NCBI RefSeq assembly: GCF_900009265.2
Contig: NZ_LR735001.1
Location: 126,059 to 162,588 of the forward strand
Length of the DNA: 36,530 bases
Direction: 5' to 3'
Origin: Planktothrix paucivesiculata PCC 9631
Lineage (GTDB): Bacteria > Cyanobacteriota > Cyanobacteriia > Cyanobacteriales > Microcoleaceae
Under the pieces are notes generated by a model. It was not told the origin of the DNA. It worked only from the letters and a program-made list of their open reading frames with translations, and made no database searches. Of this stretch, positions 14,682 to 27,833 are shown piece after piece. Made by a program: the position numbers and the translations under genes. Each line of letters begins with the position of its first letter. Positions within the stretch are counted from its first letter, which is position 1.

Positions 14682-15659
14682 TTAACGATTGTAACCGCCG
14701 TTAGGATAGGGTTGATTATTGCGATTATAACGATCATAGCGATCGCTCCCATTATAAGTTCCTGAATCATACTGACCATTGTAATTCCCGTTATTGTCAC
14801 CCCGTTGCCAGGCTGCATACTCCTGATCTAAACGTTGATCTAAAGCCGTATGAGCATCTCGAACCATTTGGGCTTTTTGGGCGGGAGATAAATTATTATA
14901 CTGAGGTTTATTTACCTCTTGTCGCATTTGTTGTTCTAACTCAGCATGACGTTGCTGACGATATTGATCAAAGGATTGTTGACTATTGGGATTGTTGGGG
15001 TTATTGCGATTGTTGCGGTTGTTGGAATTGGTATTATTATAACGACCATTATTGTTATTGGATTGCTGTTTTTTCCAGGTTTCATATTCCTGATCTAAAC
15101 TGTTATCCAAGTCACTATGAGCATCCCGAATCATTTGGGCTTTTTGGGATGAGGATAAATTGCGATATTGGGGTTTATTAACCTCTTGTCGCATTTGTTG
15201 TTCTAACTGTGCATGGCGCTGTTGACGATATTGGTCAAAGGACTGTTGATTATTGAAATTGTTAGGATTGTTGTTATTATTAGGATTGTTGTTATTATAA
15301 CGACCATTATTGTTGTAACGACCATTATTGTTATTATTGGATTGCTGTTGTTTCCAGGTTTCATATTCCCGGTCTAAACTTTTATCCAAAGTCGTATGAG
15401 CATCCCGAATCATTTTAGCTTTTTGGGCTGGGGATAAATTATTATATTGAGGTTTTTTCACCTCCTCCCGCATTTGTTGTTCTAACTGTGCATGACGCTG
15501 TTGACGATATTGATCAAAGTTATTTTGAGCCAGAATTAAATCTTGAGAGGGTTGTCTGGCGGAATTCGTATTAATCCGGTTATTAGGCATCACAGCATGG
15601 GCTGGGAGCATTGAACTCGCTAATAATACTAATGTTGCTAAGGTTAATGTCGGTTTCAT
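14682..15659 (-). CDS. Secreted protein with three ~58-residue repeats and Asn-rich linkers
   Basis: A 325-residue protein of unrecognised function. A signal peptide (MKPTLTLATLVLLASSMLPAHA) predicts export. Three near-identical modules follow at about residues 48-104, 141-197 and 230-286. Each starts FDQYRQQRHA, continues LEQQMR-EV-KPQY, has an NLS-QKA-M-RDAH core and ends DREYETW or a close variant; all look alpha-helical and charged. They are joined by linkers made almost only of Asn, Gly, Arg and Tyr (NNNNNGRYNNNGRYNNNNP), and the tail is Gly/Tyr/Asn-rich. The DNA repeats keep high identity, so module duplication is recent or is homogenised by recombination. Structure suggests an extracellular or envelope-associated binding protein; the ligand is unknown. 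It stands alone downstream of narB with its own 187-bp upstream region. Confidence 0.8.
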   Translation of the reverse strand: MKPTLTLATLVLLASSMLPAHAVMPNNRINTNSARQPSQDLILAQNNFDQYRQQRHAQLEQQMREEVKKPQYNNLSPAQKAKMIRDAHTTLDKSLDREYETWKQQQSNNNNNGRYNNNGRYNNNNPNNNNNPNNFNNQQSFDQYRQQRHAQLEQQMRQEVNKPQYRNLSSSQKAQMIRDAHSDLDNSLDQEYETWKKQQSNNNNGRYNNTNSNNRNNRNNPNNPNSQQSFDQYRQQRHAELEQQMRQEVNKPQYNNLSPAQKAQMVRDAHTALDQRLDQEYAAWQRGDNNGNYNGQYDSGTYNGSDRYDRYNRNNQPYPNGGYNR

Positions 15660-15846: not shown

Positions 15847-18015
15847 TCAAAGGTTCCCCACTGATAACTGATGACTGATGACTGATTTAATCTGTACTGC
15901 ACAGGCTTTTAATTCCGGTTGGCGGGAATCGGGACAGGCGTGGGGATGGGTTAAATGATTAGCTTCTGCATCTGCAGCCCATAATGCCCCCCAGTGCATC
16001 GGGACAAATACGGTGCCCGGGGCGATAAAGGCGGTGACTTTAGCGGGAAACCGACAACTTCCCCGCCGAGAACGCACTTCCACAATATGGCCATTTTCAA
16101 CCCCCAAATTAGCTGCATCCTTGGGATGAATTTCAATGAACGGGTCGGGGTGCATTTGTTGAATTTTTGCCGTTCTCCCGGTGCGGGTAAGGGTGTGCCA
16201 GTGACCATACAGGCGACCCGTTGTTAAGACATAGGGATAATCGGGATCACTGGGTTCGGCTAAACCTTTGGAATGGTAGGGGCCAAAAATTGCCCGACCG
16301 TCGGCGGTGGCAAAATAATTATTGGTGTAGAGGCGTTTGCAGGAAATATCGGTGTTAACTTCCCCTTCTGGACAGGGCCACTGGGTCGGCCCCTGCTGTT
16401 GCAAACGCTCATGACTTAACCCGGACATATCACAGGGACGCCCTTTAGTCAGCCGCACAAATTCAGCATAGACATCCGCCGAGGTTTGAAAGGCAAATTG
16501 TTCCTTAAACCCTAAACGCCTCCCGACATCGGCAAAAATTTCCCAGTCATGTCGGGCTTCTCCCAGGGGGACATCAAACCCCGGACAGTATGTAACACGC
16601 CGTTCTGAGTTGGTCATCACCCCGGTTTTTTCACTCCATTGGGTCGCGGGGAGTAAAATATGGGCGTAGGGGGAGGTTTCCGTGGGATAGTAGGCTTCTT
16701 GATAGACGGTAAAAGGGGATTTTAATAGGGCGGCTTTGGTACGTTCCAGGTCGGGCATACTGACGGCCGGGTTGGTGGCGGCGATCCAGAGAAACTTAAC
16801 CTGATCCTGTTCTAAACCGAGAATCATATCCCAAACGGTGCGTCCGGGGGTGGGAGAGATCTGACCTGGGGGAATACCCCAAAACTGTTCGACTTCGGCC
16901 CGATGTTGGGGGTTAGTGACAAATCGATAGCCCGGTAAGAGATTGGAGAGTCCCCCGGCTTCCCGTCCGCCCATGGCGTTGGGTTGTCCGGTGAGGGAAA
17001 AGGGGCCAGAACCGGGTTTACCAATTTGACCGGTCATCAGGTGCAAATTAATTAGCGATCGCACTTTTGCCGTACCCTCGGAGGATTGATTTAATCCCAT
17101 TGACCACAGAGATAAAACCCGTTTTGATTCTTGCCAATAGCGGGCAGCCGTTTCTAAGGCTTCGATAGTAATTCCACAGGTTTCGGCAACTTTTTCGGGA
17201 GGATAAGATTGTAAAAGTTGAGCATATTCTTTGAAATTACGGGTACATTCATCCACAAAAAGTGTATCTATATCTCCCGATTTTAATAATAAATAACCTA
17301 TACCATTAAAGAGGTCAATATCAGTTCCGGGGCGAAGGGGTAAATGCAGGTCGGCGGCTTCGGCGGTTTGGGTATATCGAGGGTCAGCCACAATTAGTTT
17401 AACGTGGGGATTTCGTTTATGATATTTGGCTAAACGATTAAAGATAATCGGATGACATTCGGCGGTATTACTACCAACAATAAAGGCACAATCAGTTAAT
17501 TCTAAATCATCATAACAACAGGGTGGCCCATCAGACCCCAAGCTCTGAACATAACCCGACACGGCTGATGACATACATAAACGAGAATTTGCATCAAAGT
17601 TATTAGTTCCTAAACACCCTTTGAATAGTTTTTGTGCTACATAATAATCTTCGGTAACAAACTGACCGGAGCCGTACATACATAAAGCATCGGAACCATA
17701 ATCATTGCGAACAGTTTGAATCTGATCTACGATCAGAGTTAGGGCTTCCTCCCAACTCCCCTGACGGAAGGGTTGGTCTAGGGTTTCTCGAATCATGGGG
17801 TGTAAAAGGCGATCGCGGCGAATTGATTCGGTGACGGTAGCTCCTTTAACACAGACCATTCCCAGACTAGAGGGATGTTGGCGATCGCCTCTCACCTTCC
17901 AAATCGGGTTTCCATGTTCATCTCGTTTAATATCTTGATCAGTCGTTGCTGTCGATAGAATTTCCAAACCACAACCGACACCACAGAAAGGACAAAGTGT
18001 TTTAATCGATTTCAT
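15847..18015 (-). CDS. narB: Ferredoxin-nitrate reductase
   Basis: Assimilatory nitrate reductase of 722 residues, normal for NarB; it reduces nitrate to nitrite in the cytosol with electrons from ferredoxin. The N-terminal [4Fe-4S] motif is [11 protein letters not shown] (residues 8-18) with the fourth cysteine in GMVCVKG. The molybdopterin-binding domains follow, with typical segments such as [28 protein letters not shown] and [14 protein letters not shown]. The C-terminal dinucleotide-binding domain includes [17 protein letters not shown] and [10 protein letters not shown]. The last ~11 residues ([12 protein letters not shown] region) are encoded by a heptamer repeat and are probably not ancestral. 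It is the last gene of the nitrate operon, 167 bp after nrtD, with a palindromic repeat in the gap that could form an RNA hairpin and tune downstream expression. Confidence 0.97.
15859..15886. repeat. 7-bp tandem repeat (ACTGATG/ACTGATA) inside the narB 3' end
   Basis: Four heptamers (CACTGAT, AACTGAT, GACTGAT, GACTGAT) lie head to tail and overlap the last codons of narB. They belong to the short tandemly repeated repetitive (STRR) type known from filamentous cyanobacteria. The same CAGTTATCAGTG string (minus strand) encodes the end of ctaA at 34098-34115. Confidence 0.85.
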
Positions 18016-18182: not shown

Positions 18183-20090
18183 CTATTGAACCGCTTTTAA
18201 ATCCAAGGTTCCTACGGGGGTAAATGTCACCTCAAACTGCGTATAGGGAGTTTGGGTTACATCGGATTTCACTAACTTGGGCAGAGGGGTATTATTCAGG
18301 TTTTGAGTTGCATCGGCCGATTTAGCTTCATAACTCAAAATCTCTCCCGTTTGACTCACTTTAACCAGATAAACGGATACCGCCGTAACTGGGGTGCTTG
18401 TCCAAGCCTCATTAATTTGGGCAAAAACCTCTTGATTTAACTTTTCTAAATCCGCCGCACTCGGAGTTTTAGCCGTGCTACCGGTAGCCGTTGCCGTTTC
18501 TGTGGGGGGTGTTGTCGGAGAGGTTGTTGGGGTTGTTGCCGCTTCCGTGGGGGCTGTTGTGGGGGTTTGGGCCACCGTTGGGGAGGGTGATGCTGTTGCC
18601 GAAGCCACACTCTCAGGCGTTGGGGACGCAGCAGACACGGGAGATGGAGCAACTGTCGGGGCAGGGGTCGGGGTGACTGCACTGGGGGCAGGGGTCGTGG
18701 GAGTCGGGGACGCCACCGCATCGGGAGTCGGGGTAATCGTCGCCACCGCATTGGGAGAGACAGTTGGGGTTGAACCCAGAGAGGGAGAGGGACTCACTGA
18801 TGTTGCCGTATCCGGTGATAGGCTAGGGGAAGCGGTGGGGGATAGGGTGGGAGAGACTATCGTGACCGGAGTTACGGTTTCAGTAACGGTGGTGGTTTCG
18901 GTTTCCATCGTTGGGGAGGCAGATTCGGTTGTTTCTGCATCCTTACTGGCCGTGGTAGAGGTGGGGTTAAAGATCAATGACCCGACTAGAGTGGCAATAA
19001 TCACCCCCCAAAGGGCAAATAATACCCCCGTCTTTATTGCTGGAGACATTTCTTCCGAGGTTATGACCTGATCCGGTACGGGGGTTACATTTGGTTGAGA
19101 CAGGGAAGCATAGGGATTTTCATTAGCATCTGGTTTATTAGGTTGCATACTTGACACCTCTGTTGCAATAGGACTAGAACTGGGTGCTATTGTAGTGCTT
19201 TGTGCAGATCCGATGTCAGAGGTTGTCTGTTCAATTGTGTCTTCATCTTCTTGATCTTCTTCGTGGTGAGCAAAGCGCCGGAACAGAAAGTCGAGGGCCT
19301 GGTTGCGTAATTCGTAGTATCGGGGGTCTTCGGTGATTTTGGCGCGGTTACGGGGACGGGAGAAAGGAATATCTAGGATCTCCCCAATATGAGCGGCTGG
19401 GCCATTGGTCATCATTACCAGGCGATCGGCCAAAAACAAGGCTTCATCGATATCATGGGTAATCATTAACACAGTAATCCGATGATCCTGCCAAATACTC
19501 AAAAGTTCTTCCTGTAATTCTTCCCGGGTGATGGGGTCTAAGGCGCCAAAGGGTTCGTCTAAAATCAACATTTGGGGACGAGTGGCTAAGGCGCGGGCGA
19601 TGGAAACCCGTTGTTTCATCCCTCCTGAGAGTTGGGAGGGTTTTTTATTCGCCGCTTCCGATAGCCCGACTAACTCTAAATTTTCTTGAACAATGGTTTT
19701 ATGTTCGGCGGCGGATTTGTCAGGATATACTGACTCAACTCCTAACTGAATATTTTCTTTTGCGGTTAACCAGGGTAGGAGGGAATAGTTTTGAAACACC
19801 ACCATCCGTTCTGGCCCGGGTTCGGTGATCAGTTGTCCCTGAACGGAGATGACCCCAGTGGTGGGTTGATTAAACCCCGCCACCATATTTAATAGGGTGG
19901 ATTTTCCACAACCAGAGTGACCAATAATACAAATAAATTCGCCTTCTTGCACCTGAAGATTCACGTCTTCTAGTACAACATATTCACCTTTTGCTGTGTT
20001 ATAAACCTTGGAAACTTGATCAATCAGCAAAAAAGCATCGGATTTTGAGGATGGCATTGGTTGGGAAGAAATACTATCTAAAATTTGCAT
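18183..20090 (-). CDS. nrtD: NrtD nitrate ABC transporter ATPase with long membrane-anchored C-terminal extension
   Basis: ATPase subunit of the NrtABCD nitrate/nitrite importer. Residues ~20-275 are a complete ABC domain: P-loop GHSGCGKST (57-65), Q-loop VVFQNYSLLPW, signature LSGGMKQRV (154-162), Walker B MLILDEP (174-180) and the switch His in THDIDEA. Ordinary NrtD proteins stop near residue 275; this one has 635 residues. The extension has an acidic spacer, one transmembrane helix (TGVLFALWGVIIATLVGSLIF, about 354-374), a ~170-residue Pro/Thr/Ser/Ala-rich linker, and an end domain (545-635) with predicted helix-strand-strand character (EVFAQINEAWT, VSVYLVKVSQTGEILSYEAK, FEVTFTPVG). With the ABC domain in the cytosol the end domain should be periplasmic. 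Met348 (MSPAIKTG) could be the start of a once separate gene, so a fusion is plausible. Confidence 0.93.
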   Translation of the reverse strand: MQILDSISSQPMPSSKSDAFLLIDQVSKVYNTAKGEYVVLEDVNLQVQEGEFICIIGHSGCGKSTLLNMVAGFNQPTTGVISVQGQLITEPGPERMVVFQNYSLLPWLTAKENIQLGVESVYPDKSAAEHKTIVQENLELVGLSEAANKKPSQLSGGMKQRVSIARALATRPQMLILDEPFGALDPITREELQEELLSIWQDHRITVLMITHDIDEALFLADRLVMMTNGPAAHIGEILDIPFSRPRNRAKITEDPRYYELRNQALDFLFRRFAHHEEDQEDEDTIEQTTSDIGSAQSTTIAPSSSPIATEVSSMQPNKPDANENPYASLSQPNVTPVPDQVITSEEMSPAIKTGVLFALWGVIIATLVGSLIFNPTSTTASKDAETTESASPTMETETTTVTETVTPVTIVSPTLSPTASPSLSPDTATSVSPSPSLGSTPTVSPNAVATITPTPDAVASPTPTTPAPSAVTPTPAPTVAPSPVSAASPTPESVASATASPSPTVAQTPTTAPTEAATTPTTSPTTPPTETATATGSTAKTPSAADLEKLNQEVFAQINEAWTSTPVTAVSVYLVKVSQTGEILSYEAKSADATQNLNNTPLPKLVKSDVTQTPYTQFEVTFTPVGTLDLKAVQ

Positions 20091-20129: not shown

Positions 20130-22133
20130 CTAGGCTGCTATGGGATCAAGGATAATTTCTTCAATCCGAATTTCTTGTTTAATCTTGAGATTTTTGAGAT
20201 ATTTAATCGGATCGTTAGGATTAAAAATAGTGCCATCAAGTAGCTTAACGCTTTGGCGATCGCGTCCTGTATCGGACAATCCTAATTCCCGGGCTGCTTG
20301 GCCATAAACATCAGTTCTTAATACCCTTTCTAGGATAGAAACCCAGTTTTTGGGAAAGGGTGTAATCCCCCAACGAGCCATTTCTGCCATGATCCAGAGA
20401 AATTCTGTAGCATCAGGGCAATTGGTTTTATCCAAATAAAACTGATTGTAATTCACTAATAATTGTGGGGGTTGACCATCGCCCCGGTCAACGGGATCAA
20501 TAAATCCTAAGCGGGTATATTCTGGGGCCGATCCGATATATTCATCCCGACATAAGATCTCTAAAATTTCTTCTCGATTTCGCCGATCATCGCAATAGTC
20601 ACAGGCATCAATTAATGCTTTTACTAAAGCAACATGGGTTTTGGGATAGCGATTTGCCCATTCTTCGGTTACGCCTAAAACTTTCTCCGTATGTCCATTA
20701 GGGAAAATATCAAAACTATTAGCAATCACAAATCCTAAGCCCTCATGAACAGACCGGGCATTCCACGGCCCTCCCACACAATACCCATCAATATTTCCGG
20801 CTTTTAAATTGGCTTGCATTTGGGGCGGTGGAATCACCGTTAAATTAACATCTTGATCGGGATTAATACCCCCGGATGCTAACCAATAACGCAACATTAA
20901 ATTGTGCATCGAACTCGGGTGAGCCATGCCCAATGTATGCACTTTGTCAAGATGATTTTCGATATAAATTTTAAAATCGGCTAAGGTTTTAACCCCATTT
21001 TCATACAAGTTTTTACTCAGGGTAATTCCATTGCCATTTCGAGATAGGGTCATAGCCGTAACAATCGGAATCGCTGGAGTTTTCCCAAAGCCCAAGGTCA
21101 TCGCGAAAGGCATTCCTGCCACCATTTGAGCCGCATCTAAACGACCTTCTACGACTCCTTGACCTAACAGTTTCCAACTGGTTTCTCGACTCAGGTTAAC
21201 TTCACTTAATCCATACTCTTCAAAAATACCCTTTTCTTTGGCAATAATCAGGGGGGCGCAGTCGGTTAGGGGAATAAAACCTAGGTCTAAATTGACTTTT
21301 TCTAAGCCATTTTTGGAAACCACCATCGGTGCTTTTTTGCCAACGGTTTTTTTGGCTTTTTTCTGTTGGTTGAGAAAGTAAACAACTTCATTCCGTAGGG
21401 CATAATAGCTGGGATGATTTACCACTTCCATCCGTTGACGGGGACGGGGAATATTCACGTCTAAAATTTGCCCAATATGAGCTTCTGGGCCGTTGGTTAA
21501 CATCACAATCCGATCGGATAATAATAAGGCTTCATCGACATCGTGGGTCACCATGACGGCGCTGACTTGGTTGGCTTCGCAGATTTTCATTAACTGCTCT
21601 TGTAACCCGCCTCTAGTTAAAGCATCTAAGGCTCCAAAGGGTTCATCTAGGAGTAATAATTGGGGACGAATCGATAGGGCACGAGCGATCGCAACTCGCT
21701 GTTTCATCCCCCCCGAAATTTCTCCCGGTCGTTTATCCGCCGCCTGTCTTAAACCGACTAATTTAATATGTTTTTCAACAATTTCTTTTCGTTCAGTTTT
21801 AGGCAGTTTACGATAGACCTCATCAACGGCTAAGGCGATATTTTCCCTAACAGTTAACCAAGGTAATAGGGAATAATTTTGAAATACCACCATTCGATCA
21901 GGCCCAGGTTCTCGGACTTCTCGCCCTTCTAAAATAATCCCTCCTTCTGAGGCTTGATCTAACCCGGCGATAATATTTAATAGGGTAGATTTTCCACAAC
22001 CCGAGTGTCCAAGAAGGGTGATAAATTCACCTTTATTAATTTTAAGTTCGATATTTTTCAGGGCAATATATTTTTCTCCATTGGGGAGATTAAAAACGCG
22101 ATGAACGTGGTCAACTTGTACGAATACAGACAT
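20130..22133 (-). CDS. nrtC: NrtC nitrate ABC transporter ATPase with regulatory NrtA-like domain
   Basis: A 667-residue fusion typical of cyanobacterial NrtC. Residues 1-260 are an ABC ATPase with P-loop GHSGCGKST (42-50), signature ISGGMKQRVAIARAL and Walker B LLLLDEPFGALDAL. A basic linker (QQKKAKKTVGKKAP) joins a ~380-residue C-terminal domain starting near LDLGFIPLTDCAPLIIAKEK that is homologous to the solute-binding protein NrtA. In this family the C-terminal domain is the regulatory part through which ammonium inhibits uptake; this is established for Synechococcus NrtC and inferred here. It is 44 bp after nrtB and 39 bp before nrtD. It is the natural partner of NrtD in a heteromeric ATPase pair. 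Confidence 0.97.
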   Translation of the reverse strand: MSVFVQVDHVHRVFNLPNGEKYIALKNIELKINKGEFITLLGHSGCGKSTLLNIIAGLDQASEGGIILEGREVREPGPDRMVVFQNYSLLPWLTVRENIALAVDEVYRKLPKTERKEIVEKHIKLVGLRQAADKRPGEISGGMKQRVAIARALSIRPQLLLLDEPFGALDALTRGGLQEQLMKICEANQVSAVMVTHDVDEALLLSDRIVMLTNGPEAHIGQILDVNIPRPRQRMEVVNHPSYYALRNEVVYFLNQQKKAKKTVGKKAPMVVSKNGLEKVNLDLGFIPLTDCAPLIIAKEKGIFEEYGLSEVNLSRETSWKLLGQGVVEGRLDAAQMVAGMPFAMTLGFGKTPAIPIVTAMTLSRNGNGITLSKNLYENGVKTLADFKIYIENHLDKVHTLGMAHPSSMHNLMLRYWLASGGINPDQDVNLTVIPPPQMQANLKAGNIDGYCVGGPWNARSVHEGLGFVIANSFDIFPNGHTEKVLGVTEEWANRYPKTHVALVKALIDACDYCDDRRNREEILEILCRDEYIGSAPEYTRLGFIDPVDRGDGQPPQLLVNYNQFYLDKTNCPDATEFLWIMAEMARWGITPFPKNWVSILERVLRTDVYGQAARELGLSDTGRDRQSVKLLDGTIFNPNDPIKYLKNLKIKQEIRIEEIILDPIAA

Positions 22134-22177: not shown

Positions 22178-23017
22178 TTATTTTTGCTCGGCGGGAACCA
22201 CTTTAGAAGCAATAAAACCAATGGTTCTATCTAGGATCAAACCGACGACTCCGACATAAATTAAAGCCACGATAATCGCACTCATTCGAGAACTATTATA
22301 GGCATCCCAAATAAAGAATCCGATCCCAACTCCACCCACTAACATTTCCGCCGCAATAATCGCTAACCAAGATAGACCGATCCCAATTCTTAATCCGGTA
22401 AAAATATAGGGAACTGCGGAGGGAAATAACACTTTAAAGAAGTATTTATGTTTGGGTAAACGTAACACTCTAGCCACGTTTTTATAGTCTTGAGGAATTT
22501 GTTGTACCCCGACGGTGGTATTGATAATAATCGGCCAAACTGCTGTAATAAAGATGACGAAAATAGCCGCCGGATTAGATTGTTGTAAAGCAGCTAGGGC
22601 AATGGGCAACCAAGCCAGCGGCGGAATTGTTCTAAGAATTTGAAAGAGGGGATCTAAGGCATCATACATAAAGGAATTACTCCCCACTAAAATCCCTAGG
22701 GAAATTCCTACAATGACCGATAAGCTAAAGCCAATCGCCACCCGTTGTAAACTGGCAATGACTTGCCAACCCAACCCTTTATCAGTACCGCCATTATCAA
22801 AAAATGGGTTAACAATTAATTCCCAAGATTCTTTAACGGTTGTAATCGGAGAGGGTAAATTAGGATTTTCTCCTGAACATAATAGTTGCCAAATCGCTAG
22901 AAAAATAAAGACTCCAATCAAAGGACGGATCACTTTATTCCGATTATTATTAAACCAATTGAAAACAGAATTTAGAGGATTATTACTATCAGAATTAGCT
23001 TTGGCGCTAGTAGTCAT
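22178..23017 (-). CDS. nrtB: Nitrate ABC transporter permease NrtB
   Basis: A 279-residue inner-membrane permease of the NrtB/SsuC type. It has an Asn-rich cytosolic start, a first membrane helix (PLIGVFIFLAIWQLLC), several more helices, and the EAA-type coupling loop around IPQDYKNVARVLRLPKHKY, which contacts the ATPases. The ending (LILDRTIGFIASKVVPAEQ) is typical of the family. It works as a dimer with NrtC and NrtD on the cytosolic face and receives nitrate from NrtA. The 148-bp gap to nrtA contains a GTAGAGAC palindrome, larger than the other gaps in the operon. Confidence 0.96.
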   Translation of the reverse strand: MTTSAKANSDSNNPLNSVFNWFNNNRNKVIRPLIGVFIFLAIWQLLCSGENPNLPSPITTVKESWELIVNPFFDNGGTDKGLGWQVIASLQRVAIGFSLSVIVGISLGILVGSNSFMYDALDPLFQILRTIPPLAWLPIALAALQQSNPAAIFVIFITAVWPIIINTTVGVQQIPQDYKNVARVLRLPKHKYFFKVLFPSAVPYIFTGLRIGIGLSWLAIIAAEMLVGGVGIGFFIWDAYNSSRMSAIIVALIYVGVVGLILDRTIGFIASKVVPAEQK

Positions 23018-23165: not shown

Positions 23166-24494
23166 TTAAACTTTTTTGATCGCTAAACTATTGAGATAGG
23201 CTTTAGGATCATCGGGGTTGAATTGTACGCCATCAAAGAAGGTTTCAATCCCGCGAGAGGGTGTGGCTGGAATTTCGGCTGCGGGAACATTTAAAGACTT
23301 CGCTGCTTCTCGCCATAAATCTTCGCGGTTGACCTTATCAACGGTGGCTTTAATATCTAAATCGGCTGGTAAATATCCCCAGCGAATATCTTCGGTTAAG
23401 AACCAACTATCATGGCTCTTATAGGGATAAGACGCATTATCCCGCCAGAATTTCATAGCCAAGGGACTAGCCGTAATCACCCGACCATCCCCAAAATCAA
23501 TATTTCCCCTGGAGCGCTCAATAATATCTTTAAAAGGCACTTTAAACCATTTATCTTGGGAAACAATTTGACACATTTCCTCGATATTTTCCGGTTTATC
23601 ACACCATTGTTGCGCTTCTAATACGGCCATGGTTAAAGCTTTAGCGGCTTTGGGGTTTTTATCCACCCAATCTGCTCGCATGGTAAAGGCTTTTTCGGGG
23701 TGATCTTTCCATAATTCCCCGGTAATTAATGCGGTATATCCGGCTTTTTGATTGACTAATTGGGCATTCCAAGGTTCACCGACACAGAACCCTTCCATAT
23801 TTCCGACTTTCATATTCGCTACCATTTGGGCGGGTGGCACCGGAATAATTGAAATATCAGTATCAGGAACAGTACCCCCGGCAGCTAACCAATACCGCAC
23901 CCATAAATCGTGAGTTCCTCCAGGGAATGTAATCGCAGCCTTGACTTCCTTTCCGGCATTTTTGGCAGCTAATAAAATATCTCTGAACTTAGCACTATCA
24001 TTAACAGTAATTTTAGCATCCAGATAGTCTTTACTTAAAGAAATCGCCTGACCATTGGTATTTAATCGGGCTAAAAGATACATCGGAACGGGTTGTTTTG
24101 TAATCGTTCCTAATGTCATTAAATACGGCATAGGGGATAGGATATGGGCCCCATCAATACCCCCTCCACCTGACCCTAATTCTAGGTTATCTCTAGTAAC
24201 AGGCCAAGAGGCTTGTTTAACTACCTTAACGTCAGACATTCCATACTTAGCAAACAGGCCCTTTTCTAAGGCAATAATTAGGGGGGCTGAGTCGGTTAAA
24301 GCAATAAATCCTAATGTTGCTGTTGGTATTTCTGGAGCATCAGCCGGATTAATATTCACCGCCGGGGCTGGAGTAGAGGTTGTTGTCGTGGTTGTGGAAG
24401 GATTGTTATTAGCAGCACAACCATGGATGATTAGAGTTCCAGCCGCCGTTGCACCAGCCGTGAACAGGAATTTCCGTCGTGAAAGTTTACTCAT
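23166..24494 (-). CDS. nrtA: Nitrate/nitrite-binding lipoprotein NrtA
   Basis: The periplasmic solute-binding component of the nitrate transporter, 442 residues. The N-terminus has a twin-arginine-like start (SRRKFLFTAG) and a lipobox ending in GTLIIHGC, with Cys26 as the likely lipid attachment site. A Thr/Pro-rich spacer follows (TTTTTTSTPAPA). The binding domain begins at TATLGFIALTDSAPLIIALE and contains the family segments TFPGGTHDLWVRYWLAAGG and GNMEGFCVGEPWNAQLV. It is homologous to the C-terminal domain of NrtC. It lies 54 bp after nirA and is part of the same NtcA-controlled transcript. Confidence 0.97.
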   Translation of the reverse strand: MSKLSRRKFLFTAGATAAGTLIIHGCAANNNPSTTTTTTSTPAPAVNINPADAPEIPTATLGFIALTDSAPLIIALEKGLFAKYGMSDVKVVKQASWPVTRDNLELGSGGGGIDGAHILSPMPYLMTLGTITKQPVPMYLLARLNTNGQAISLSKDYLDAKITVNDSAKFRDILLAAKNAGKEVKAAITFPGGTHDLWVRYWLAAGGTVPDTDISIIPVPPAQMVANMKVGNMEGFCVGEPWNAQLVNQKAGYTALITGELWKDHPEKAFTMRADWVDKNPKAAKALTMAVLEAQQWCDKPENIEEMCQIVSQDKWFKVPFKDIIERSRGNIDFGDGRVITASPLAMKFWRDNASYPYKSHDSWFLTEDIRWGYLPADLDIKATVDKVNREDLWREAAKSLNVPAAEIPATPSRGIETFFDGVQFNPDDPKAYLNSLAIKKV

Positions 24495-24548: not shown

Positions 24549-26084
24549 TTATTCTTTGACTCGAGCACCAAATTGTTCGACTAAAATTTGTCGCAAAACG
24601 GGCTTGAGATCCTCGCAGGGAATGGATTTTTGGACACATTCACCCAGTTGGGCATCTTTACCGACTTTTCCGCCCATATAGAGGTTCACCCCTTCAACGG
24701 TTTTGCCGTCTTTGCGGGCTTTGGTTCCCATTAATCCAATGTCGGCTACTTGGGGTTGTCCGCAGGAGTTGGGGCAGCCTGTCCAATGAATTCTGACGGT
24801 TTTTTCGACGGTTAATTCCGCTTCTAATTCCTTAACTAATTCGACAGCCTGATTTTTAGTTTCTACCAAAGCAAAGTTACAAAATTGTGCGCCCGTACAG
24901 GAAACTAATCCTCGACTTAAGGCAGAGGGATTAACGGAGAATTTTTCCAAAATCGGTTCGGTTAAAAAGGCTTCTAACCGACTATCGGAAATATTGGGAA
25001 TAATCACATTTTGTTCAACGGTTAAGCGAATTTCTCCACTCCCATAAACTTCAGCAATGCGGGATAATTCTAACATATCGTTAGCAGATAACCGGCCAAC
25101 GGGAATATTTAATCCCACATAGTTTAATCCGGGTTGTTTCTGTTGATAAATTCCCAAATGATCCCGTTTTTCCCAAAGAATTTCGTCTTTTTCCGCTTCA
25201 GATTCTAAAGCATAACCGATTTGTTTTTCGACTTCAGAACGAAACTTCTCAATGCCCCATTCATCGATTAACCACATTAACCGAGTTTTTTGGCGAACTC
25301 CCCTAGGCCCATGGTCTCGAAAGACTTCTAAAATCCCTCGACAAATATCGACAACTTGCTCGGGTTTTGCCCAAACATTCAGGGGAATGGCGGCTTCACA
25401 ACGGGTTGCAGAAAAGAATCCTCCAACTAACACATTGAAGCCAAAAGTTTCCTGTTTAAATGCCGGAATAAAGGCAATATCATTGATTTCGGCGTGAATA
25501 GAATTATCCCGACATCCGCCAATGGCAATGTTGAATTTTCGGGGTAAATTACTAAACTCTGGATTTCCTTTTCCTTTATTGGTAATTAGGTCTTGAACCT
25601 GTTGCACTAACTCCCGGGTATCATAGAGTTCATCGGCATCTAACCCCGCAACCGGTGAACCTGTGATATTACGGACGTTATCCATTCCCGACTGAATACT
25701 TGTGAGTCCAACGGTTTCAAACCGCCGAAAAATATCGCTGAGATCCTCAATCCGAATTCCTCTTAACTGAAGGTTCTGTCTTGTGGTAATATCAGCACTA
25801 CCGTCATCACCATAGCGTTGCACGATTTCCCCCAAAACCCACATCTGCTCACTGGTGATCACCCCATTTGGTAAACGCAACCGCATCATGAATTTACCTG
25901 GAGTCACGGGACGGAAAAACACCCCGAGCCATTTTAGGCGATGGTCTCGGTCGGTTTCGTCCATGGCTTCCCAACCCAATTGGGCGAAGGTTTCTAGTTC
26001 ATCTTTAACCGCTAAACCATCTTTTTCGGCCTTGAGTTTCTCAAATTTGTTTGTGGCTGTTTTTTGCGGGACTGTGCTGGTCAT
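24549..26084 (-). CDS. nirA: Ferredoxin-nitrite reductase
   Basis: Siroheme and [4Fe-4S] enzyme that reduces nitrite to ammonium with six electrons from ferredoxin. The four cluster/siroheme cysteines are visible as SCTGAQFCNFALVETK (C-x5-C) and HWTGCPNSCGQPQ (C-x3-C). Substrate/siroheme-binding arginines lie in DITTRQNLQLRG and RKFNIAIGGCRDN. I start it at ATG 26082-26084 (511 residues), since GAGGA precedes it at good spacing and the length matches other NirA; an in-frame TTG at 26135 would add 17 unusual residues and has no ribosome site. It is the first gene of the nirA-nrtABCD-narB operon. Predicted initiation near 26254 leaves a ~170-base leader. Confidence 0.97.
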   Translation of the reverse strand: MTSTVPQKTATNKFEKLKAEKDGLAVKDELETFAQLGWEAMDETDRDHRLKWLGVFFRPVTPGKFMMRLRLPNGVITSEQMWVLGEIVQRYGDDGSADITTRQNLQLRGIRIEDLSDIFRRFETVGLTSIQSGMDNVRNITGSPVAGLDADELYDTRELVQQVQDLITNKGKGNPEFSNLPRKFNIAIGGCRDNSIHAEINDIAFIPAFKQETFGFNVLVGGFFSATRCEAAIPLNVWAKPEQVVDICRGILEVFRDHGPRGVRQKTRLMWLIDEWGIEKFRSEVEKQIGYALESEAEKDEILWEKRDHLGIYQQKQPGLNYVGLNIPVGRLSANDMLELSRIAEVYGSGEIRLTVEQNVIIPNISDSRLEAFLTEPILEKFSVNPSALSRGLVSCTGAQFCNFALVETKNQAVELVKELEAELTVEKTVRIHWTGCPNSCGQPQVADIGLMGTKARKDGKTVEGVNLYMGGKVGKDAQLGECVQKSIPCEDLKPVLRQILVEQFGARVKE

Positions 26085-26260
26085 AGCGGATTCCTCAGTG
26101 TTGCTATGTCTCGAATTTGGATCAAATTTGGCCAAACATTAACAGGTCTGTGGGACACAAACCGTATCACGGGAGACTCAAATCTAAAATCAGAGTATTA
26201 ATCTCTTTTGTTTGAACTTAGAGGCTCTCGACCTCAACCCAAAGGTTAAGCAATGTGAAT

Positions 26261-26487: not shown

Positions 26488-26525
26488 GTCCATAGACAAA
26501 GATGTTTTAACTACTAAAATTAATT

Positions 26526-27833
26526 ATGATTCCAAATACTTCTTGTTACTGGCTGAAAAATGTTCGCGTTCCGGTTTGTGTACTGACCGATGTTGATGGG
26601 GCGATCGCAGCTTCAGCTAATACGGATGGTATGGCTTTAGTTGATATTAAAATCACCTCGGGAATCATTAATCAGATTGCTATTGCCGAATCTATTGAGT
26701 TAGAAAATATCCCCACGGTGGATTTACAGGGGAAACAAATTTGGCCCTGTTTTGTAGATGTTCATACTCATTTAGATAAGGGTCATATTTGGGAGCGATC
26801 GCCGAATATTAAAGGAACCTTTGAAGACGCTTTAACTGCCACTTTTAAAGATGAAGAAACCTGGACTACCGAAGATATTTACCGACGAATGGAATTTGGC
26901 TTAAAGTGTAGTTATGTCCATGGAACCAAAGCGATTAGAACCCATTTAGATTCGGCAGGAAGATTGATAGATATAAACTGGGATGTTTTTAACACATTAA
27001 AAAAGGAATGGCAAGATCGCTTAATTTTGCAAGGTGTTTCCTTAGCTACCTTAGACTATTATTTAACGGCGGAAGGTGAAAAATTAGTTAATAAAGTAGT
27101 AGATTCAGGGGGAATTTTGGGTAGCGTTGCTTATATTAATCCTGATTTAGATCAACAAATTGAGCGAATTTTTGCTATTGCTAAAGACCGCAGTTTGAAC
27201 CTAGATTTCCATGTCGATGAAAATGGAGAAGCCGAATCAATTTGTTTATCTAAAATTGCCGAAGCCGCGTTAAAATATCAATTTCAGGGGAAAATTATTT
27301 GCGGACATTGTTGTAGTTTAGCCGTACAACCGGAGGATATTGTTCAAAAAACCCTAGAATTAGTTAAAGCTGCCAACATTGGAATTGTGAGTTTACCGAT
27401 GTGTAATCTCTATTTACAAGATCGTCAATATGATCAATCTCAACATCCAAAAACCCCCCGTTGGCGAGGAACAACCTTAGTTCATGAATTGAAACAAGCG
27501 GGGATTTCCGTGGCTTTTGCTAGTGATAATTGTCGTGATCCGTTTTATGGTTTTGGCGACCATGATGGGTTAGAAGTCTTTAAAATGGCGGTGAGAATTT
27601 GCCATTTAGATAGACCTTTCCAAGATTGGTTATCGACTGTCACAACCATCCCGGCGGATTTTATGGGTTTACCCGATACCGGACGCCTTGGCGTAGGACT
27701 TCCGGCGGATTTTATTATTTTTCAAGGAAGGTATTTAAGTGAAATTTTATCCCGGTGTCAGAGCGATCGGATTGTAATTAGAAACGGTAAAATATTGGAA
27801 GAAAAATTACCTGATTATGCGGAATTAGATTAG
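26526..27833 (+). CDS. Cytosine deaminase-like amidohydrolase
   Basis: A 435-residue TIM-barrel metal-dependent hydrolase of the amidohydrolase superfamily, closest in motif pattern to cytosine deaminase/CodA-like enzymes. Visible metal-ligand motifs are VDVHTHLDKGH near residue 77, DFHVDENGE near 231, KIICGHCCSL near 260, and FASDNCRDPF near 340. The C-terminal composite beta domain ends with LPADFIIFQGRYLSE. Cytosine deaminase releases ammonia and makes uracil, which would fit beside a nitrogen assimilation operon. The exact substrate (cytosine, creatinine or another cyclic amidine) is not proven by sequence. It diverges from nirA with a 441-bp gap that holds the NtcA site. A strong hairpin ends the gene. 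Confidence 0.85.
   Translation: MIPNTSCYWLKNVRVPVCVLTDVDGAIAASANTDGMALVDIKITSGIINQIAIAESIELENIPTVDLQGKQIWPCFVDVHTHLDKGHIWERSPNIKGTFEDALTATFKDEETWTTEDIYRRMEFGLKCSYVHGTKAIRTHLDSAGRLIDINWDVFNTLKKEWQDRLILQGVSLATLDYYLTAEGEKLVNKVVDSGGILGSVAYINPDLDQQIERIFAIAKDRSLNLDFHVDENGEAESICLSKIAEAALKYQFQGKIICGHCCSLAVQPEDIVQKTLELVKAANIGIVSLPMCNLYLQDRQYDQSQHPKTPRWRGTTLVHELKQAGISVAFASDNCRDPFYGFGDHDGLEVFKMAVRICHLDRPFQDWLSTVTTIPADFMGLPDTGRLGVGLPADFIIFQGRYLSEILSRCQSDRIVIRNGKILEEKLPDYAELD

Follow-up and report, generated by a model that had tools for sequence, protein, structure and literature searches.

A module with a predicted membrane anchor, a long linker and a small TonB/TolA-like C-domain is associated with nitrate and iron importers in cyanobacteria. 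Members of this family of 'importer arms' are fused to the nitrate importer ATPase NrtD or to FeoA, or are encoded beside nrtP or, at three loci, beside FTR1. The example analysed here lies in a 36,530-nucleotide stretch of the Planktothrix paucivesiculata PCC 9631 genome (NZ_LR735001.1, positions 126,059 to 162,588; hereafter the window), where it continues the reading frame of nrtD. Our preferred reading, held at about even confidence, is that the module is a dedicated importer arm that is anchored in the inner membrane, crosses the periplasm and docks on a partner through its TonB/TolA-like tip, with a role in nutrient coupling. To our knowledge, the passage of small inorganic nutrients across the cyanobacterial outer membrane to inner-membrane importers is poorly understood, and a module that has joined the nitrate importer more than once, and iron importers on separate occasions, is a testable candidate for a physical link between the two membranes. 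If correct, this reading would widen the TonB/TolA principle, which serves rare and bulky cargo, to include bulk nutrients like nitrate.

A tailed NrtD in the nitrate locus

Positions 18183–20090 of the minus strand form one uninterrupted reading frame of 635 amino acids. Its first 275 residues (19266..20090) are the NrtD ATPase, which matches NCBIfam ntrCD (TIGR01184) over residues 40–269 at 398.1 bits against a cut-off of 291.8, and PF00005 at 4.7e-35. There follow an acidic/Ser-Thr spacer visible in the translation (residues 276–314; 19149..19265), a single transmembrane helix (354–374; 18969..19031) indicated by hydropathy (top 19-residue mean 2.49 at residues 356–374) and predicted to run N-in/C-out, a 168-residue linker that is 78% Pro, Thr, Ser and Ala (375–542; 18465..18968; row L001 of our linker counts, in which the frame is counted from residue 31), the C-domain (545–635; 18186..18458) and the stop codon (18183–18185). 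These parts confirm the first-pass annotation, which had described an NrtD that runs some 350 residues past its usual end and carries a helix, a linker of about 170 residues and a small end domain; the segment it had marked, 18183–19049, corresponds to residues 348–635.

The surrounding minus-strand genes are ordered nirA, nrtA, nrtB, nrtC, nrtD and narB. Both nrtC (20130..22133; TIGR01184, 421.2 bits) and nrtB, the permease gene (22178..23017; TIGR01183, 357.4 bits), exceed their NCBIfam cut-offs, and nrtA and narB are placed by position together with sub-cut-off matches. We take 23166..24494 to be an nrtA-type binding protein gene from its operon position, general knowledge and an SsuA_fam match below cut-off. 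From context and general knowledge, 15847..18015 is presumably the nitrate reductase gene narB (Fdh-alpha 537.8 and NasC 519.7 bits, each under its own cut-off) and 24549..26135 presumably the nitrite reductase gene nirA, of which 76–80% identical frames adjoin nrtP genes elsewhere. The tailed protein shares with ordinary NrtD (TIGR01184) the ATPase above cut-off, the nrt gene order and a downstream narB, and differs from it by about 350 extra residues that hold the anchor, arm and tip. A second NrtD-like ATPase of the same genome (contig C127, 288-aa frame) has no tail, and NrtD-like paralogues in seven other fusion-bearing genomes have frames of 282–311 aa.

Three further features of the locus were noted. 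A 198-codon antisense frame (18475–19071, plus strand) lies opposite the linker and is most likely a by-product of its low complexity. An amidohydrolase-like gene (26526–27833) is divergent from nirA, and genes 61–63% identical to it lie near nitrate genes in three genomes of the family (G011, G018 and G023). Positions 14682–15659, 3′ of narB, encode a secreted-looking protein with three repeats of about 55 residues separated by Asn-rich linkers.

Conservation of the tail

The tail is a real module under selection. When 59 genomes were searched, among them that of the window (G000), the C-domain turned up in all nine same-genus relatives (E ≤ 8.7e-52; the genus comprises ten genomes, G000–G009, and the family 36, G000–G035), and in eight of the nine it lies in a frame of 631–668 aa that also holds the NrtD ATPase, the ninth being G006. 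Among the named relatives from a second collection are Planktothrix rubescens PCC 7821 and Planktothrix sp. PCC 11201. C-domain dN/dS values between the window's genome and the eight fused relatives are 0.015–0.093, and no pair computed exceeds 0.187.

NrtD length was surveyed with the tailed ends as query, which returned 339 confirmed relatives; the best 80 of these were kept, and because their similarity ranking was set by a tailed query the following counts are not natural frequencies. An ordinary NrtD end occurs in 40 of the best 80 loci, 33–39 aa past the start of the query, in frames of 277–345 aa from stop to stop. The C-domain is present on NrtD in 27 (the frame of L062 includes a masked run and that of L048 begins at a contig end), and the linker is 43–172 aa long among the NrtD fusions examined. 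The remaining 13 have a membrane helix without a C-domain match; two of them (L052 and L107) run off a contig end, leaving 11 (L053, L055, L064, L065, L068, L070, L074–L076, L079 and L080) from eight Microcystis, Snowella, Geminocystis and one metagenome-assembled genome, in which NrtD reads as a membrane-anchored ATPase. A stand-alone homologue of residues 348–635 just after nrtD, which the first-pass annotation had suggested looking for, was found in none of the best 80 of 339 loci when frames of at least 60 aa other than NrtD were searched with the C-domain profile (E ≤ 1e-3) in flanks that reached 6 kb at most and less where a contig ended.

In G006 the tail occurs without its importer. 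This locus lacks the stretch between window positions 26521, where the divergent amidohydrolase gene starts, and 19242, within the NrtD spacer; missing are nirA, nrtA, nrtB, nrtC and the ATPase half of NrtD, and also narB. The tail still reads through without a stop (73% DNA identity) and is again adjoined by the repeat protein encoded at 14682–15659 in the window. Across the G006 genome, rated 99% complete, we found no NarB (E ≤ 1e-100), no NrtP (E ≤ 1e-60) and no close NrtD or NrtC, the one match being a 284-aa frame of 54% identity; the absence of nirA, nrtA and nrtB was judged at the locus. C-domain dN/dS between G006 and the nine fused genomes is 0.048–0.187, highest with its closest relative G008. 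Past constraint on this tail is certain and present constraint probable. Survival of the tail in G006 after loss of the ATPase and nitrate genes argues that it serves, or once served, some purpose other than nitrate.

A C-domain family beside nitrate and iron importers

To place the tail in a wider context, a profile of 19 C-domains was run against 386 genomes of the phylum and matched 100 of them (E ≤ 1e-4). Of the 124 C-domain frames in the fetched loci, 112 are distinct; places matched in the search of 59 genomes but outside these loci are in frames of 353–466 aa, apart from two fragments, each in a 67-aa frame, in G026. The frames comprise NrtD fusions, FeoA fusions, DUF4335, WD40 and TPR proteins, free genes with anchor, linker and domain, nrtP-adjacent genes, and genes linked to ferritin and CbiM.

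Two of these contexts join the C-domain to importers other than NrtD. FeoA is fused to a helix, a linker and the same C-domain at 13 loci in nine genomes of the window's family (L018–L023, L026, L027, L164–L167 and L188); Pfam FeoA scores 6.1e-15 and 1.3e-11 in the two fusions tested, and FeoB lies within 5 kb of five of the 13 loci, some of which have short flanks. The FeoA fusion can be regarded as an iron counterpart of the NrtD fusion. A small gene with anchor and C-domain adjoins nrtP, which encodes a NarK-family nitrate permease (family assigned from L145), at 14 loci in 14 genomes (L145–L155 and L209–L211), with the permease on the same strand in 14 of 14, nirA present in 11 and narB in 12. 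At one of these loci (L146:4304-6510, in G023) narB is split by an in-frame TAG, from gene degradation or sequencing error.

Within the 36 genomes of the family, 17 have an NrtD fusion (including G028, whose frame is broken by a run of N) and 14 a C-domain gene beside nrtP; none has both, the nrtP content of the fusion genomes being outside this count. Besides G006, which has lost its nitrate genes, four genomes are exceptions in having nrtP with no adjacent C-domain gene: G015, where nirA, nrtP and narB follow one another with no C-domain gene between or adjacent, G021, G030, in which the contig ends about 1 kb upstream, and G012, in which nrtP has stops. Outside the family, in G054, nrtP lies just downstream of a fused nrtD.

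Other C-domain genes lie near metal-related genes (L156–L160 and L193). Ferritin-like and CbiM genes are near the C-domain gene at five of five loci, and FTR1 at three of the five, with short flanks in some (Pfam FTR1 and Ferritin were checked for L157); a similar C-domain gene in G002 stands beside imelysin and di-haem oxidoreductase genes. These clusters suggest an iron or metal uptake arm. DUF4335 proteins carry the C-domain at 22 loci, with DUF3038 within 5 kb in 19 and an OmpA-like gene in eight (L002, for which Pfam OmpA was confirmed, L192, L205, L207, L208, L215, L218 and L221, most of these also with DUF3038), a layout that recalls Tol-Pal. In some DUF4335 proteins from outside the window's family the C-domain is present twice.

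A porin gene lies near one of the 112 distinct C-domain frames, which we judge to be about chance expectation. In this case (L163:3061-5821, in G011) the C-domain gene lies 358 nt upstream of a gene for an SLH-OprB 'iron uptake porin', the frame of which is broken into two parts; as a single instance among 112 frames, it does not make porin neighbourhood significant.

Comparison with TonB and TolA

The tail had initially been likened to TonB and TolA as an inner-membrane anchor followed by a Pro-rich arm and a small C-domain. This order of parts stands, on a predicted topology, and the match at the level of the fold is weaker. The AlphaFold2 model of the C-domain has a pLDDT of 86.9, and its fold matches to TonB/TolA are weak, with AsfvPrimPol rows interspersed; the C-domain assignment draws on this model, the fold matches and the family profile. 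Searched with that profile, the PDB sequences gave no TonB or TolA match (best E 1). The window C-domain scores about 16 bits against Pfam TonB_2 (E 0.013–0.02; cut-off 22), and the genome search of G000 gave no TonB_C at E ≤ 1e-6 and no TonB_2 at E ≤ 0.05, so neither model detects the domain in a genome search. Among 13 genomes, TonB_2 matches C-domain places in G042 and G054 only, one of which exceeds the cut-off, at 22.8 bits, when joined with its in-frame neighbours.

The NrtD tail shares with TonB a single anchor followed by a Pro-rich linker, as judged by hydropathy and composition, and differs in a C-domain that scores below the Pfam cut-off. TonB has a conserved His in its membrane helix for coupling to ExbB/ExbD, whereas a His occurs in the 19-residue helix in none of 32 rows; it stands just before the helix in four FTR1/DUF4079-linked rows (L156, L157, L158 and L193). 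MotA_ExbB has one strong (2.3e-33) and one marginal (3.1e-4) match in G000, which speaks to presence in the genome and not to interaction, and we know of no TonB dependence of nitrate uptake. The arm of TolA is helical; here it is P/T/S-rich, the helix has no His and the anchor is joined to a cytosolic transport ATPase. The immediate neighbours of tailed nrtD are nrtC and narB, and not tolQ, tolR, tolB or pal. The C-terminal domain of FusB, a TonB homologue used for ferredoxin import, is 13% identical to the C-domain. Anabaena TonB2 and TonB4 are, in the available text of PMC8597729, TonB-like arms without a siderophore role, and a TolA-like envelope role is proposed there for TonB2; compared by that description, they differ in that their cytosolic region is short and they are fused to no importer. 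Our searches of the open-licence PMC literature brought up no account of a TonB/TolA-like domain fused to NrtD or FeoA or encoded next to nrtP.

Models for the function of the arm

The importer-arm reading draws on the order of parts, the constraint on the C-domain, the contexts of its family with their nitrate and iron importers, the 17 NrtD fusions and 14 nrtP-adjacent genes that never coincide in one genome of the window's family, the more than one origin of the NrtD-fusion C-domains, the start region and the predicted fold. In this model, the anchor would keep hold of the importer in the inner membrane, the arm would pass through the periplasm and wall, and the tip would bind an outer-membrane, wall or periplasmic partner; the importer would thus be placed beneath its entry route, and substrate might be caught before it diffuses off. 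Internal initiation at Met315 may additionally yield a separate arm. NrtP has no ATPase and yet is accompanied by the same kind of arm, so a common function is more probably to be sought in the periplasm than in the control of ATP hydrolysis. A stretched peptide extends about 0.3 nm per residue, and the 168-residue linker would therefore span about 50 nm when fully stretched; according to the available text of PMC8597729, about 32 nm suits the inter-membrane distance in Anabaena. The first-pass annotation had proposed that, given the predicted topology, a cytosolic ATPase is tied to a domain reaching across the periplasm that could couple uptake to the outer membrane, a porin or the binding protein. 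This proposal is partly supported: the fusion is real, topology and docking are predicted steps, and with a porin gene near one of 112 distinct frames, docking on a porin is put forward as a suggestion only. Several observations speak against a dedicated importer arm: the tail kept in G006, the nrtP genes of G015, G021, G030 and G012 with no C-domain gene beside them, the presence of FTR1 and FeoB near only part of their loci, the weak fold matches, the scarcity of Shine-Dalgarno matches at assumed gene starts, and the C-domain on DUF4335, WD40 and TPR proteins, for which no part in import is known. A tentative and rather doubtful extension of the model, which would define a previously unrecognised class of cyanobacterial transport parts, gives each inorganic nutrient importer (NrtABCD/NrtP; FeoAB, FTR1) one trans-envelope arm that docks onto its outer-membrane entry route and may be moved by the transport cycle rather than by ExbB/ExbD.

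Alternatively, the tail and the DUF4335-type proteins could be general envelope-organising arms that bind the wall or outer membrane for integrity, with fusion to nrtD serving mainly co-expression or localisation instead of nutrient coupling. We consider this possible, at well below even confidence. It would accommodate the tail of G006, the free tails of G010, G011, G013, G018 and G023, which have no nrt, nirA or narB genes in the fetched flanks (the G010 contig is 4.2 kb), the DUF4335-type loci with their DUF3038 and OmpA-like neighbours inside 5 kb, and the likeness, by description, to Anabaena TonB2 with its proposed TolA-like role (PMC8597729, available text). A general tether would not be expected to have been gained by NrtD more than once, to adjoin nrtP or to be linked to FeoA and FTR1.

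An unlikely third model makes the tail a periplasmic sensor or regulator, whose C-domain would either bind NrtA or nitrate or monitor the periplasm, and relay this to the ATPase in the manner of the NrtC regulatory domain. In NrtC an extension that resembles a binding protein is regulatory, and the nrtC frame observed here is correspondingly long; the NrtD tail is positioned for signalling across the membrane. Such a sensor is hard to reconcile with the same module beside the MFS permease NrtP and on FeoA, and a very long low-complexity linker transmits signals poorly.

A possible internal start and the origin of the fusion

The region around Met315 (19146..19148, minus strand) resembles the start of a free-standing tail gene. 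A Shine-Dalgarno-like GAGGTG at codons 311–312 (19155..19160), six bases and then the ATG of codon 315 are kept in all ten genus genomes. The 20 nt 5′ of Met315 are identical at 14 positions to those 5′ of the free-gene start in G011, a value reached by none of 400 other ATGs in the G011 locus (best 10). Ungapped comparison with the free starts of G013, G018 and G010 gave 7, 4 and 4 of 20, not above other ATGs, and the G018 and G023 start regions resemble the window by eye only with one base gapped. Met348 (19047..19049), first thought to mark the start of a formerly separate gene, has no 6-nt Shine-Dalgarno match at suitable spacing and was dropped in favour of Met315 as the better candidate.

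These observations bear on a model of two products, in which the gene would yield both the full-length fusion and an arm of its own initiated at Met315, with the separate arm the main functional form. The conserved GAGGTG-ATG spacing and its likeness to the G011 free gene favour it, as does G006, in which Met315 is the first ATG of the tail frame, with a GTG three codons before. A 6-nt Shine-Dalgarno match also precedes two other internal ATGs among the 179 in frame in the 24 window genes. Of the 24 assumed starts of these genes, one has a match of at least 6 nt and 17 have no 4-nt match, so such sites are no general mark of starts here. The fused frame moreover stays open in eight of nine relatives, and we regard a mainly separate arm as quite improbable. 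Neutral read-through or misassembly that left a tail without function would fit the low-complexity linker of variable length (43–172 aa), but is highly improbable and already contradicted by a C-domain kept in nine of nine relatives at dN/dS ≤ 0.187 and retained after loss of the ATPase, unless all genomes share one error.

The shared start region implies either that nrtD was joined in frame to a free tail gene or that the free genes derive from a fusion by loss of its ATPase part, as exemplified by G006. We prefer fusion of a free tail gene, with its start persisting at Met315, since four other genera have free genes, in five genomes (G010, G011, G013, G018 and G023). The C-domain trees are weak, as the domains are short (100 columns), and carry a long-branch warning. 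In a quick tree the C-domains of this genus group with five of six free tails (SH-aLRT 88); a single clade with all six is not rejected (AU p = 0.15), again with a long-branch warning. A single origin of the NrtD-fusion C-domains was rejected in a 73-row tree (AU p = 0.00137), yet in a quick tree the ATPase halves from this genus cluster with those from Microcoleus, Tychonema and Kamptonema (SH-aLRT 98 for 24 tailed rows). Tails were therefore gained or swapped independently. The nrtP-linked C-domains form one group (support 96/86) and the FeoA-fused C-domains another (99/92).
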